Positions 54,802-64,000 of a DNA stretch of 64,000 nucleotides are shown here, piece by piece. The stretch covers positions 248,001 to 312,000 of the forward strand of contig NZ_JAFLWW010000004.1 in assembly GCF_018555685.1 (NCBI RefSeq). Direction: 5' to 3'. Position 1 is the stretch's first letter, and each line of letters starts with the position of its first letter. The notes beneath the pieces were generated by a model. It made no database searches. It had not been told where the DNA came from and saw only the letters and a list, made by a program, of their open reading frames with translations. This stretch comes from Aminobacter anthyllidis (GTDB lineage: Bacteria > Pseudomonadota > Alphaproteobacteria > Rhizobiales > Rhizobiaceae). The translations under genes and the position numbers were made by a program.

Positions 54802-55851
54802 GTGCAGGTGCAGCGGAGGCGTCCGACGATCATTGATGTCGCGGAGAAGGCGGGTGTCTCGAAGAGCACCGCCGGCCGCGCGTTGTCCGGTGCCTCCAAC
54901 GTGACCGACGAGGCGCGCGAACGGGTGCTGGAGGCTGCCAAGGCTGTCGGCTACGAGCGCAATGATCTCGCCGTTGGCATGCGCTCGGGACGTACAGGGC
55001 TGCTCGGTCTCGTCATTCCTGATATCACCAACCCGTTCTGGGCCGAGGTTGCCCGTGGCGCCCAGGACCGCGCCGCCGAAAACGGCGCGTCGCTTTTGGT
55101 CTTTTCCTCCGACTGGAACCACGATCGCGAAGCCAGCCATTTGCGCGCCCTGCGCCAGGCACGCGTTGATGGTGCGATCATCAATCCAGTGGCCGACAAT
55201 TTTGACGACCTCGACCGCTTCGGCCTGCCTTTCGTCCTTATCGGCTCGAGTGCCGAGCGCTTCCCTTCGACCTCAAGCGTCGGCTCGGACATCGCGCAGG
55301 CCGTGCGGCTGGGCATGGATCACCTGGTTTCCAAGGGCCACCACGCGCCGGCGCTGATCCTCGGGCCCAAGTCGCGCATCGCCCGCGCCCGGTTCCTGCG
55401 CACCTTCCATGAGCATTGCGTCGAGCGCGACGTCGATCCGGCGGCGCTGCCAATGGAAGACGGCGAATACACCGTCGAGGGCGGGCGCACGGCGATGAAA
55501 CGCCTGCTTAAACGCGACCGGGTTGGCCATTTCGCGGTATTCGCCGCCAACGACCTGATGGCGCTGGGGGCCATGGTCGCCGTGCGCGAAGCCGGATTGC
55601 GCTGCCCTGAAGATGTTTCGATCCTTGGTTTCGATGGCGTGCCGGCCGGTGCATTCTCCTGGCCAGGGCTGACAACAGTCGCCAAGCCGGGCCGCGAGAT
55701 GGGCGTGCGTTCTCTCGATTGCCTGCTCGATGAAATTGCCGGCCGTTCGGAGCACGGCCGGGTGTTCCTGCCGTGCCGGCTGATCGAGCGTGGGTCGCTT
55801 GCCGACCTGTCGCTGAACCAGCCCAAACGCGCGGTCGGGGACGGGAGGTAA
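54802..55851 (+). CDS. LacI-family transcriptional regulator
   Basis: 349-residue regulator. The LacI helix-turn-helix (TIIDVAEKAGVSKSTAGRAL, residues 8-27) and hinge (SNVTDEARERVLEAAKAVGY) are followed by a periplasmic-binding-protein-like sensor domain (LGLVIPDITNPFWAEVARGA; NDLMALGAMVAVREAGL). The start is GTG at 54802, with a GAGGAGGAG ribosome-binding site directly upstream; longer frames read through the operator. It precedes the importer and glycohydrolase operon by 6 bases and is probably its regulator. Confidence 0.92.
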   Translation: MQVQRRRPTIIDVAEKAGVSKSTAGRALSGASNVTDEARERVLEAAKAVGYERNDLAVGMRSGRTGLLGLVIPDITNPFWAEVARGAQDRAAENGASLLVFSSDWNHDREASHLRALRQARVDGAIINPVADNFDDLDRFGLPFVLIGSSAERFPSTSSVGSDIAQAVRLGMDHLVSKGHHAPALILGPKSRIARARFLRTFHEHCVERDVDPAALPMEDGEYTVEGGRTAMKRLLKRDRVGHFAVFAANDLMALGAMVAVREAGLRCPEDVSILGFDGVPAGAFSWPGLTTVAKPGREMGVRSLDCLLDEIAGRSEHGRVFLPCRLIERGSLADLSLNQPKRAVGDGR

Positions 55852-55857
55852 CTGACG

Positions 55858-56835
55858 ATGACGGACCATGATCAGACGCTGAATGCGCCGCGAATTGGGA
55901 ACGTTCCCAAATCGGCGGTTCGCGGCAAGCCGAAACGGGCGACGGCGTTCGCCAATGGCTGGCGCCGCTGGTGGCCGTTCTACGTCATGATGGCGCCGGG
56001 CCTGGCGTTCTTCCTGGTGCTGCATTACCTCCCGATCTGGGAAGCGCGCATCGCCTTTGAGCAGGTCAGGATCGTTCCGCCCAACATCTGGGTCGGGCTC
56101 AAGCATTTCTACGTGTTGTTTGCATCGCCGGTGTTCTGGCAGGTGCTGGCCAACACGCTGATCATCTCGGCGATGAAGATGGCCTTCTTCCTGCCGGTGC
56201 CGATCCTGGTGGCGCTGTTGATCAACGAGGTGCGCGGCGGACGCCTGCGCAAGTTCATCCAGTCGGCGATCTATCTGCCGCATTTCCTGTCCTGGGTGGT
56301 CATTGCAGGCGTCTTCATCGCTGCACTGTCGCCCACCGACGGCGCGGTCAACAATCTGATGGGCATGGCCGGCATCGCGCCGCGCTCGTTCATGACCGAC
56401 ACCGGCGCCATCCGCTGGGTGCTGGTATTCACCGAGATCTGGCGCTCGGCCGGCTGGGACAGCCTGCTCTATCTCGCCGCGATCATCGCCATCGACCAGC
56501 AGCTTTATGACGCCGCCGAGATCGACGGTGCCAACCGCTGGCAGAAGATCTGGCACGTCACGCTGCCCGGCATCGTGCCGACGATCGCCACGCTGTTTAT
56601 CCTCAACGCCGGCATGTTCCTCAACGCCGACCTCAACCAGGTCATCAACTTCTCCAACGACGTGGTCCGTTCCAAGATCGATATCGTCGACACCTATGTC
56701 TACCGCATCGGCCTGCAGACCGGCGAATACTCGCTGGCGACCGCGGCTGGCCTGTTCAAGGCGGTGCTTGGCACGATGATGATCGTCACCGCCCATTTCG
56801 TGTCCAAGCGCTTGACCGGCAAGGGAGTCTGGTGA
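55858..56835 (+). CDS. ABC transporter permease, LplB type
   Basis: 325-residue inner-membrane permease of the polysaccharide/oligosaccharide (LplB) branch: a Pro/Arg-rich cytosolic start, FYVMMAPGLAFFLVLHYLPI as first helix, and the EAA loop DAAEIDGANRWQKIWHVTLP near residues 220-240. Codons 13-18 fall on a perfect 16-bp LacI-type palindrome. The stop overlaps the next ATG by one base (TGATG). Confidence 0.93.
   Translation: MTDHDQTLNAPRIGNVPKSAVRGKPKRATAFANGWRRWWPFYVMMAPGLAFFLVLHYLPIWEARIAFEQVRIVPPNIWVGLKHFYVLFASPVFWQVLANTLIISAMKMAFFLPVPILVALLINEVRGGRLRKFIQSAIYLPHFLSWVVIAGVFIAALSPTDGAVNNLMGMAGIAPRSFMTDTGAIRWVLVFTEIWRSAGWDSLLYLAAIIAIDQQLYDAAEIDGANRWQKIWHVTLPGIVPTIATLFILNAGMFLNADLNQVINFSNDVVRSKIDIVDTYVYRIGLQTGEYSLATAAGLFKAVLGTMMIVTAHFVSKRLTGKGVW
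55895..55910. promoter_or_regulatory. Perfect 16-bp LacI-type palindrome inside the first permease gene
   Basis: TTGGGAACGTTCCCAA is a perfect palindrome 38 bases into the LplB-type permease coding region, where it codes for IGNVPK. It shares the GGAACGTTCC-type core with the site before lacI, 1,128 bases upstream. Looping or roadblock repression by the LacI protein is likely. Confidence 0.8.
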
Positions 56836-62501: not shown

Positions 62502-62575
62502 AGACGGTGGTCCCCGCTCTGGGCCTGGCGGCTGGAGCGGGAGCCCGCGTGGGCGTATCGAAAGGGAGGAATACC

Positions 62576-63631
62576 ATGTCGGAAATCGAACTCAGGAATG
62601 TCGGCAAGAATTATGGCAGCGTGCCGGTGCTCGACGACATTTCGCTCGACATGGGCAGCGGCGAATTCGTCGTCCTGGTCGGCCCGTCCGGCTGCGGAAA
62701 GTCGACGCTGCTCAGGATGATCGCCGGGCTCGAAGACATCAGTTCCGGCGAGATCACTATCGGTGGCAAGATCGTCAACGACATGCCGGCCAAGGAGCGC
62801 GACCTGGCCATGGTGTTCCAGAATTATGCGCTTTATCCGCATATGAAGGTCGCCGACAACATGAGCTTCGCGCTCAAGCTCGCCGGCGTCTCCAAGGCCG
62901 AGATCCACAAGCGTGTCGCCGAGGCCGCTGAAATCCTCGGGCTCGAAAAGCTGCTCGACCGGCTGCCGCGCGAGCTCTCCGGCGGCCAGCGCCAGCGCGT
63001 GGCAATGGGACGCGCCATCGTGCGTGACCCGCGCGCCTTCCTGTTCGACGAGCCGCTGTCCAATCTCGACGCCAAGCTGCGCGTCAAGATGCGTGGCGAG
63101 ATCAAGAAGCTGCATCAGCGCCTGGGCAAGACCACCATCTACGTTACCCATGACCAGACCGAGGCCATGACCATGGCCGACAAGATCGTGGTGCTGAATG
63201 GCGGCAAGATCGAGCAGATGGGCCCGCCGCTGGAGCTCTACAAGAACCCGCGCAATCTGTTCGTCGCCGGCTTCATCGGCTCGCCTGAGATCAACCTGAT
63301 GCATGGCGAGGTCGACGGACAGAGCCTGCGGCTTGCCGACGGCGCGAAGCTGCTGCTGCCGACCGAGATCGATCTCGCGCAGGGCCGCAGGATCGTCTAC
63401 GGCATCCGTCCGCAGCATATCGGCCTTGCTGACAATGGTGTCGCGGCCGAGGTGGTGCTTGTCGAGCCCACCGGCGATGCGCAGGAGGTGCTGCTGCGTA
63501 TCGTGTCGAGCGACATCTCCATGGTGCTGAGCGAGGCGGCACCTTTGCAGCCGGGGCAGAAAGTGACGCTCGGCTTCGATCCGGCCAAGGTACTTTTGTT
63601 CGACAAGGACAGCGGCGAGCGTATCCGATGA
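62576..63631 (+). CDS. Sugar ABC transporter ATPase, UgpC/MalK type
   Basis: 351-residue ATPase with Walker [10 protein letters not shown] (36-44), signature [14 protein letters not shown], Walker [12 protein letters not shown] and a C-terminal TOBE domain ([28 protein letters not shown]). Start ATG at 62576 with GGGAGGA upstream. It supplies the ATPase for the LplB/LplC permeases. The stop overlaps the CoA-transferase ATG (ATGA). Confidence 0.94.
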
Positions 63632-64000
63632 CCGGCTTTGCCCAAATGCATTGGGATGCTGCCGCCCAAGGGCCGCTCGAGGGCATCAAGGTGCTCGACC
63701 TGTCGCGGCTCGTCGCCGGCAACATGCTGTCGCTGCAACTCGCCGATTTTGGCGCCGATGTCATCAAGATCGAACCGCCGGTCGGTGATCCATTGCGCGA
63801 GTGGAAGGAAGACGGCCTGTCGATCTTCTGGAAGACCTATGGCCGCAACAAGCGCTCGGTCGTCCTCAACCTGCGCGAGCCCGCCGACCGCGAGGCTCTG
63901 TGGGCGCTGGTCGACGGTGCCGATGTGCTGATCGAGAATTACAGGCCCGGAACGCTGGAGCAGATGGGTTTTGGCCCGGACCAGCTTCTGAAGCGCAATC
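63628..64000 (+). CDS. Family III CoA-transferase (CaiB/BaiF type), 5' part
   Basis: The first 124 residues of a CaiB/BaiF CoA-transferase: [52 protein letters not shown] and [16 protein letters not shown]. The gene continues past the window end; the catalytic Asp lies beyond. ATGA overlap with the ATPase gene shows it belongs to this operon, so the pathway probably includes an acyl-CoA step after glycoside cleavage. Confidence 0.9.

Follow-up and report, generated by a model that had tools for sequence, protein, structure and literature searches.

Why should an operon for nutrient uptake carry two members of the ADP-ribosylglycohydrolase (DraG) family, usually studied as erasers of ADP-ribosylation, together with a coenzyme A (CoA) transferase? 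The question is raised by a locus of Aminobacter anthyllidis (RefSeq assembly GCF_018555685.1, contig NZ_JAFLWW010000004.1, positions 248,001–312,000) at the end of the 64,000 nucleotides analyzed here (the window). A sequence-only reading had suggested that the two proteins are catabolic N-glycosidases for an imported ribosyl or other N-glycosidic compound, whose freed acid is activated by the CoA-transferase; every gene it named, and both metal-motif strings it quoted, are present where it placed them. On balance, we favor an operon that imports and degrades a small acidic riboside, in which ribose would be joined to a citramalate-like hydroxy acid. The sequence itself shows the gene set and how well it is conserved, the operator-like palindromes and the exchange of acid modules; every activity, sugar, acid and bond assigned below is inferred.

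The operon and its conservation

The operon comprises nine genes and is cut by the window end, with lacI, lplB, lplC, the binding-protein gene, draG1, draG2, ugpC and caiB starting within the window, all on the forward strand; coordinates prefixed L003 or C25 follow locus and contig numbering past that end. A LacI-family repressor (54802-55851; PF00356 and PF13377 above cut-off; an alternative GTG start at 54667 gives a longer reading) is followed by LplB- and LplC-type permeases (55858-56835 and 56832-57731; both PF00528) and a solute-binding protein (57741-59204; PF01547) with a signal peptide by eye, a likely start at ATG 57780 and AlgQ1 as its best solved relative (E = 2.6e-22). Next come DraG1, with an ADP-ribosylglycohydrolase fold (59191-60375), and DraG2, with a DraG-fold domain plus β domains (60393-62501), which score 145 and 171 bits against PF03747 (cut-off 26.2) and are the only two matches to this family in a profile search of the whole genome. 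A UgpC-type importer ATPase (62576-63631) passes the UgpC subfamily cut-off (NF008653, 484.6 bits versus 432). The first part of a CaiB-type CoA-transferase gene (63628-64000) closes the window; the gene finishes at C25:312845 (PF02515, 396 bits for the whole gene, L003:9128-10345) and is overlapped by 4 bases by citE, which encodes a CitE/HpcH-type lyase outside the window (C25:312842-313669, that is, L003:10342-11169; PF03328, 100 bits). Downstream of citE, genes run in the opposite orientation (by eye).

To assess conservation, a DraG2 scan of one genome per species yielded 174 relatives, of which 80 loci were kept: 67 non-Bacillota, mostly Devosia, Ensifer and relatives, and 13 Bacillota. 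Five distant or partial DraG2 matches (L165–L169), the distant plasmid loci L091 and L094 and the Nitratireductor locus L093 were excluded from cluster counts, and gene counts in non-Bacillota loci take only those with enough contig. DraG1 or a diverged counterpart lies within 9 kilobases of DraG2 in 78 of the 80 loci, the two exceptions (L060 and L077) being contigs that stop before the usual draG1 place. LacI, LplB, LplC and the binding protein are each kept in all 53 non-Bacillota loci with room, CaiB in 58, CitE in 52 and UgpC in 49 of 59, and beyond this conserved set the next commonest family occurs in only 6 of 80 loci. The CitE-less loci are L012–L014, L016, L017, L054 and L062, several of them named Ensifer or Sinorhizobium, with L012 also lacking CaiB; here the lyase may come from elsewhere. 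Because tens of genomes repeat this gene order, the arrangement is more than chance, and the operon is a real unit. Conserved co-occurrence of both DraG types with the importer, which the sequence-only reading had named beforehand as the point on which it could fail, is what these loci have, and the same counts speak for a catabolic role of both proteins on an imported substrate.

The distribution is patchy and spans soil, plant-associated and gut bacteria. Among 61 relatives six match, the close form being confined to A. anthyllidis and one other genome (96% identical) and the remainder being 29–35% identical; a phylum sample gave 2 matches in 398 genomes, one of them A. anthyllidis itself, and a Bacillota sample 8 in 398, the query genome among them and five of the eight being distant or partial. 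A plasmid of Deinococcus aetherius (L092, 1138-11076) encodes LacI, permeases, a binding protein, a 370-amino-acid protein with no Pfam match, a DraG-family protein, a ribokinase and DraG2. The Nitratireductor locus has both DraG proteins and the importer, and no acid module or kinase was seen adjoining the cluster. On an Enterobacter plasmid (L091, 7945-12404), a three-gene set of LacI, a 33% identical DraG2 relative and a binding protein lies near nag genes, and at L167 (8079-12046) a distant DraG2 relative (32%) stands beside a ribokinase-like and a deoxyribose-phosphate aldolase-like gene (by eye).

Two operator-like palindromes accompany lacI. O1, GTGGTAACGTTCCCAC (54767..54782), lies upstream of the gene, and O2, TGGGAACGTTCCCA (55896..55909), a perfect palindrome, lies at the lacI–lplB junction, inside the first codons of lplB when that gene is read from 55858. 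The palindrome core GGTAACGTTCCC occurs 5′ of lacI in 51 of 54 loci, and a second palindrome, GGGAACGTTCCC, occurs at the lacI–lplB junction in 51 of 54. Across the 80 loci, which are related and total 1.5 megabases (Mb), the core has 53 sites versus 0.18 expected in random sequence. Allowing at most one mismatch, TGGTAACGTTCCCA is found only at O1 and O2 in the A. anthyllidis genome (6.7 Mb, 30 contigs); the same pattern backwards, as a control, gave one match on each strand. Given conserved palindromes and only two genomic sites, LacI looks like a local regulator of the gene set.

The DraG-fold pair and the sugar

DraG1 carries a canonical TDDT...GRDTDS metal motif, with T75, D76, D77, D323 and D325 invariant in the alignment, and the structure matches of its model (predicted local distance difference test, pLDDT, 87.4) are MJ1187 (1t5j), DraG (2woe) and ARH3 by Foldseek. 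DraG2 (model pLDDT 92.1) consists of a DraG-fold domain (residues ~1–345), a middle β-sandwich (~360–535) and a CBM66-like domain (~540–700), and matches MJ1187, ARH3 and CBM66. The first nine rows of its Foldseek output by E-value are β-sandwich proteins with low template-modeling scores, matched by the non-DraG domains; matches of both models to 1t5j, 2woe and ARH3 assign both to the DraG/ARH fold, with identities to ARH3, DraG and MJ1187 of 13–21%. The acidic metal residues of DraG2 (D61, D62, D63, D285 and D287) are invariant across 29 aligned sequences. Unlike the binding protein, neither DraG protein has a signal peptide by eye. In 9 of 13 Bacillota loci, the place of DraG1 is filled by a diverged homologue of ~329 residues (PF03747, 168 bits; 22–24% identical to DraG1 in the seven aligned), and at L065 (4660-8589) a second DraG2 copy, 39% identical, lies immediately behind DraG2.

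Both sequence (E = 2.3e-11) and fold relate the last domain of DraG2 to CBM66 of Bacillus levanase. As the levanase module binds terminal fructofuranosides, a furanoside ligand is a fair guess for the DraG2 domain. DraG-fold enzymes themselves grip ribose hydroxyls via their metals.

Ribokinase-like genes of the PfkB family point to ribose as the sugar. Such a gene is present in 9 of 13 Bacillota loci versus 1 of 67 others; with the L163 cluster, which has one, and the L164 cluster, in which none was found, the total is 10 of 15 Bacillota clusters. The kinase of the Deinococcus cluster L092 is annotated as ribokinase, and ribokinase (TIGR02152) is the best family for all five cluster kinases scored, one of which (L080, 325.2 bits) passes the cut-off of 299.65. 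A. anthyllidis has one ribokinase-like gene outside the operon (273.8 bits, under the cut-off). As for the ligand, among solved structures the binding protein is closest to AlgQ1 and AlgQ2, which bind acidic oligosaccharides, and this kinship agrees weakly with an acidic compound.

Interchangeable acid modules

Three unrelated acid modules exchange in the clusters: CaiB+CitE, CitD–CitE–CitF (CitDEF) and AtuA+DUF4387. CaiB+CitE is found in non-Bacillota loci and in Aquibacillus (L090). CitDEF lies immediately behind the diverged draG1 in L078, L079, L081 and L084, is convergent with it in L087 and, in the L089 genome, adjoins a partial diverged draG1 at a contig end (L130); the L085 and L086 genomes encode the cluster CitF type elsewhere (L134 and L131), and the L076 genome holds CitF fragments only, 71% identical to the L078 CitF. 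AtuA+DUF4387 occurs in L080, L088, L163 (AtuA by search, DUF4387 by eye) and L164. All 14 Bacillota genomes examined have an acid module, with CitDEF in nine (six in or beside the cluster, two elsewhere in the genome and one as CitF fragments), AtuA+DUF4387 in four and CaiB+CitE in one; L077 was omitted for its short contig. The activation of a freed acid by CoA, as initially proposed, draws support from CitE beside CaiB and from the other modules that take their place elsewhere.

The cluster CitF type is present in 9 of 10 genomes with the diverged DraG1 (one as fragments), the tenth, L164, having AtuA+DUF4387. A sample of 398 Bacillota genomes, which may be incomplete and in which at most three candidates each were scored, yielded no CitF of this type; 28 of them had a CitF match, at 40–49% identity. 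No AtuA match was found in the A. anthyllidis genome, and control genomes gave none either, so its absence there is not established.

Which acid these modules handle is suggested by a second genomic setting. CaiB+CitE is the known CoA route for citramalate. The methylaspartate pathway yields (S)-citramalate, and its CitDEF is a putative citramalate lyase, according to the excerpt of a 2015 paper (PMC4682846), which also describes the fate of (S)-citramalate in E. coli as unsettled and a DUF1446 (AtuA) gene beside mal as lacking an explained function. Our exchange test took 60 of 63 methylaspartate places over cut-off in the Bacillota sample (L171–L230; three were omitted, two of them split genes). 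AtuA+DUF4387 was present in 37 and CitDEF in 4, with no locus carrying both (P = 0.018 assuming independent loci, which they are not), and AtuA and DUF4387 were always together, neither occurring alone. AtuA+DUF4387 also adjoins mal (methylaspartate ammonia-lyase) in E. coli, Salmonella and Prevotella records, where AtuA is 46–48% identical to that of L080. Because the same two modules alternate in citramalate-forming loci and in DraG clusters, we read the acid as citramalate-like, and AtuA+DUF4387 is a candidate citramalate-processing enzyme. That the substrate is a riboside of a 3-hydroxy di- or tricarboxylic acid seems to us probable. Citramalate itself is a real possibility that we rate a little below even; candidates for the acid include the (R) form, citrate and further analogues.

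In the AtuA tree, whose branches are long and whose base is weakly supported, the one result to be read is a clade of three of the four AtuA proteins from DraG clusters. On the conjugative Klebsiella plasmid pHNLC3 (L098, 7980-17359), AtuA+DUF4387 lies in a catabolic-looking cluster with aldehyde dehydrogenases and a fumarate hydratase, and this AtuA groups among the methylaspartate-linked proteins.

A predicted riboside pathway and its alternatives

The operon is predicted to serve glycoside catabolism, coupled to an importer and distinguished by an uncommon hydrolase family and an uncommon aglycone. The compound would be taken up via the binding protein and the LplBC–UgpC importer, and DraG1 and DraG2 between them would hydrolyze its ribosyl bond or bonds in the cytoplasm, DraG2 perhaps holding the furanoside by its CBM66-like domain. 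Ribose would then be converted to ribose-5-phosphate by a ribokinase, cluster-encoded in most Bacillota and perhaps supplied in A. anthyllidis by the ribokinase-like gene elsewhere in its genome. CaiB would load the acid with CoA for cleavage by CitE into acetyl-CoA and an oxo acid, which for citramalate would be pyruvate. Where CitDEF replaces them, the products would be acetate and the oxo acid, and AtuA+DUF4387 presumably achieves the same. The local LacI would repress the operon at its two operators. The bond is probably alpha-O-glycosidic or an ester.

Several observations weigh against this pathway. We know of no natural ribose–citramalate conjugate, and none appears among the literature matches listed. 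The sequence-only reading called the metal motifs of both DraG proteins intact, which holds for DraG1; DraG2 keeps the acidic residues, but the profile alignment shows another residue in place of the Thr of TDDT and a Cys where Ser/Thr would follow the last Asp. Of the 67 non-Bacillota loci, 66 lack a ribokinase-like gene, as do 5 of the 15 Bacillota clusters, and four of the scored kinases fall below the ribokinase cut-off (L092, 290.8; L090, 289.8; L072, 248.8; and L086, 233.4 bits). CitE is absent from 7 of the 59 non-Bacillota loci, and no acid module is recognizable in the Deinococcus cluster, where the 370-amino-acid protein may fill that role. CaiB and CitE pass no substrate-specific cut-off, those of citramalate enzymes included: CitE scores 122.5 bits as RipC/Ccl citramalyl-CoA lyase (NF038242, cut-off 375), and CaiB 184.7 as succinyl-CoA:mesaconate transferase (NF041294, cut-off 700) and 258.7 as succinate-glutarate transferase (NF052585, cut-off 750). 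The cluster CitF forms a clade (100/100, branch 1.13) separate from both E. coli citrate lyase and methylaspartate-linked CitF, which leaves room for an acid other than citrate or (S)-citramalate. Finally, both modules are missing from the surroundings of 19 of the 60 methylaspartate loci (contig ends truncate some of these), and three of six AtuA plasmid loci examined are not methylaspartate clusters.

Among the alternatives, the strongest retains the pathway and changes the acid, to citrate, 3-hydroxy-3-methylglutarate (HMG) or another 3-hydroxy acid. Cluster proteins do pass citrate-lyase cut-offs in L078 and L087 (CitF, 574 and 579 versus 501; CitD, 99 and 113 versus 63.5; the L087 CitE, at 315.6 bits, is under its cut-off of 443), the cluster CitF stands apart in the tree as a separate clade, and the best family of CaiB is succinate-glutarate CoA-transferase, with HMG CoA-transferase fourth among solved relatives. 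We nonetheless consider this reading unlikely, given the frequency of AtuA+DUF4387 in the citramalate-forming methylaspartate loci (37/60). It also has against it that, of eight genomes holding a complete cluster-type CitF, six have another CitF with a higher citrate-lyase score (663–713 versus 534–610 bits); the second full copy in G455 is the lower scorer (539 versus 574), and in G456 the other copies are fragments. Still less probable is another furanose, such as fructofuranose or arabinofuranose, phosphorylated by a PfkB kinase that is not a ribokinase. The fructofuranosides bound by levanase CBM66 and the low ribokinase score of the clostridial kinase L086 (just 233 bits) would suit it, but ribokinase is the best family for all five kinases, with one above cut-off, and DraG-fold metals hold ribose hydroxyls.

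The two DraG proteins might instead be nucleosidases for an imported nucleoside-like compound, which is if anything slightly less probable again. In E. coli yegTUV, homologues of a nucleoside symporter and of DraG go together with a sugar kinase, according to an excerpt of PMC10819704, but the conserved set here holds no base-catabolic gene. The N-glycosidic part of the original proposal is consequently the one we would drop: nothing found indicates an N-glycoside, and a hydroxy acid held in an O-glycosidic or ester bond would suit the gene set better. Regulatory erasers that strip ADP-ribose from proteins or nucleic acids and sit in the operon by accident would share the DraG fold, yet the pair accompanies importer genes across alphaproteobacteria, Bacillota and Deinococcus, the conserved set contains no transferase partner, and equivalog cut-offs are unmet (DraG, TIGR02662, cut-off 337: DraG1 51.5 bits, DraG2 no score; the Tri1 ADP-ribosylarginine hydrolase, NF041672, cut-off 490: DraG1 24.9 bits, DraG2 no score). 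We rejected this role, on operon context and cut-offs, as very improbable. An even fainter prospect is that the DraG proteins act on the phosphoribosyl-dephospho-CoA group of citrate lyase, which bears an alpha-linked ribose and whose carrier CitD is encoded in some clusters; this was rejected too, as the conserved set outside Bacillota lacks CitD and an importer has no place in such a role.

The predicted degradation of an acidic riboside has partial counterparts in known systems. In the ribose-scavenging (rus) system of Bacteroides, ribose is freed from conjugates and phosphorylated by ribokinase, and the transporter differs from that of the operon. Itaconate/citramalate degradation by a CoA-transferase and RipC/Ccl likewise combines a CaiB-type transferase with a CitE-type lyase, whereas the operon set has no hydratase, contains DraG-fold hydrolases and encodes a CitE far below the RipC cut-off. 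ARH3, DraG and MJ1187 share the fold and acidic metal residues of the pair but not the CBM66-like domain and variant motif of DraG2 or the uptake context. The closest parallel found is yegTUV (the GgaR/YegW regulon), which, as excerpted in PMC10819704, also has a DraG-family protein, a transporter, a putative sugar kinase and one local repressor; it differs in its single DraG protein, its symporter and its lack of an acid module, and its substrate is likewise open. Methylaspartate loci (PMC4682846, in excerpt) have the same two interchangeable modules, CitDEF or AtuA+DUF4387, but there the acid comes from glutamate instead of being imported, and the CitF clades differ. Among the literature matches listed, from a search with most subscription papers outside it, the gene set is undescribed, and the same literature yielded no description of DUF4387 function.

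Upstream in the window, the neighboring operon (47862-54401) encodes a binding protein, two permeases, a UgpC-like ATPase, a PfkB kinase and a 504-amino-acid protein of argininosuccinate lyase/fumarase type by eye, and thus pairs an importer with an unusual lyase. It was rejected as part of the unit: flanking families are common to at most 6 of 80 loci, and the operators occur only at the draG operon. Farther upstream, on the reverse strand, an 801-amino-acid protein (43929-46334; PIG-L-type N-terminal part by eye) adjoins a ROK-type regulator (46359-47582). A tRNA scan found none.

A wider version of our proposal, possible and put forward tentatively, is that an unrecognized alpha-ribofuranoside or ribosyl ester of citramalate, or of a close analogue, is common and has a dedicated pathway in at least two phyla, perhaps three. 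The DraG-fold pair would then be ordinary glycosidases, one with a furanoside-binding CBM66-like domain, and AtuA+DUF4387 would represent another, unrelated type of citramalate-cleaving enzyme, one that also supplies the missing last step of the methylaspartate pathway. The pattern of module exchange offers a testable answer to the fate of (S)-citramalate in E. coli, a question posed in the excerpted PMC4682846. If the proposal is true, two conserved families lacking a function, AtuA/DUF1446 and DUF4387, would gain a testable role, the operon would be a sign of a class of natural metabolite not yet described, and nutrient catabolism would gain a protein family so far examined as ADP-ribose erasers.

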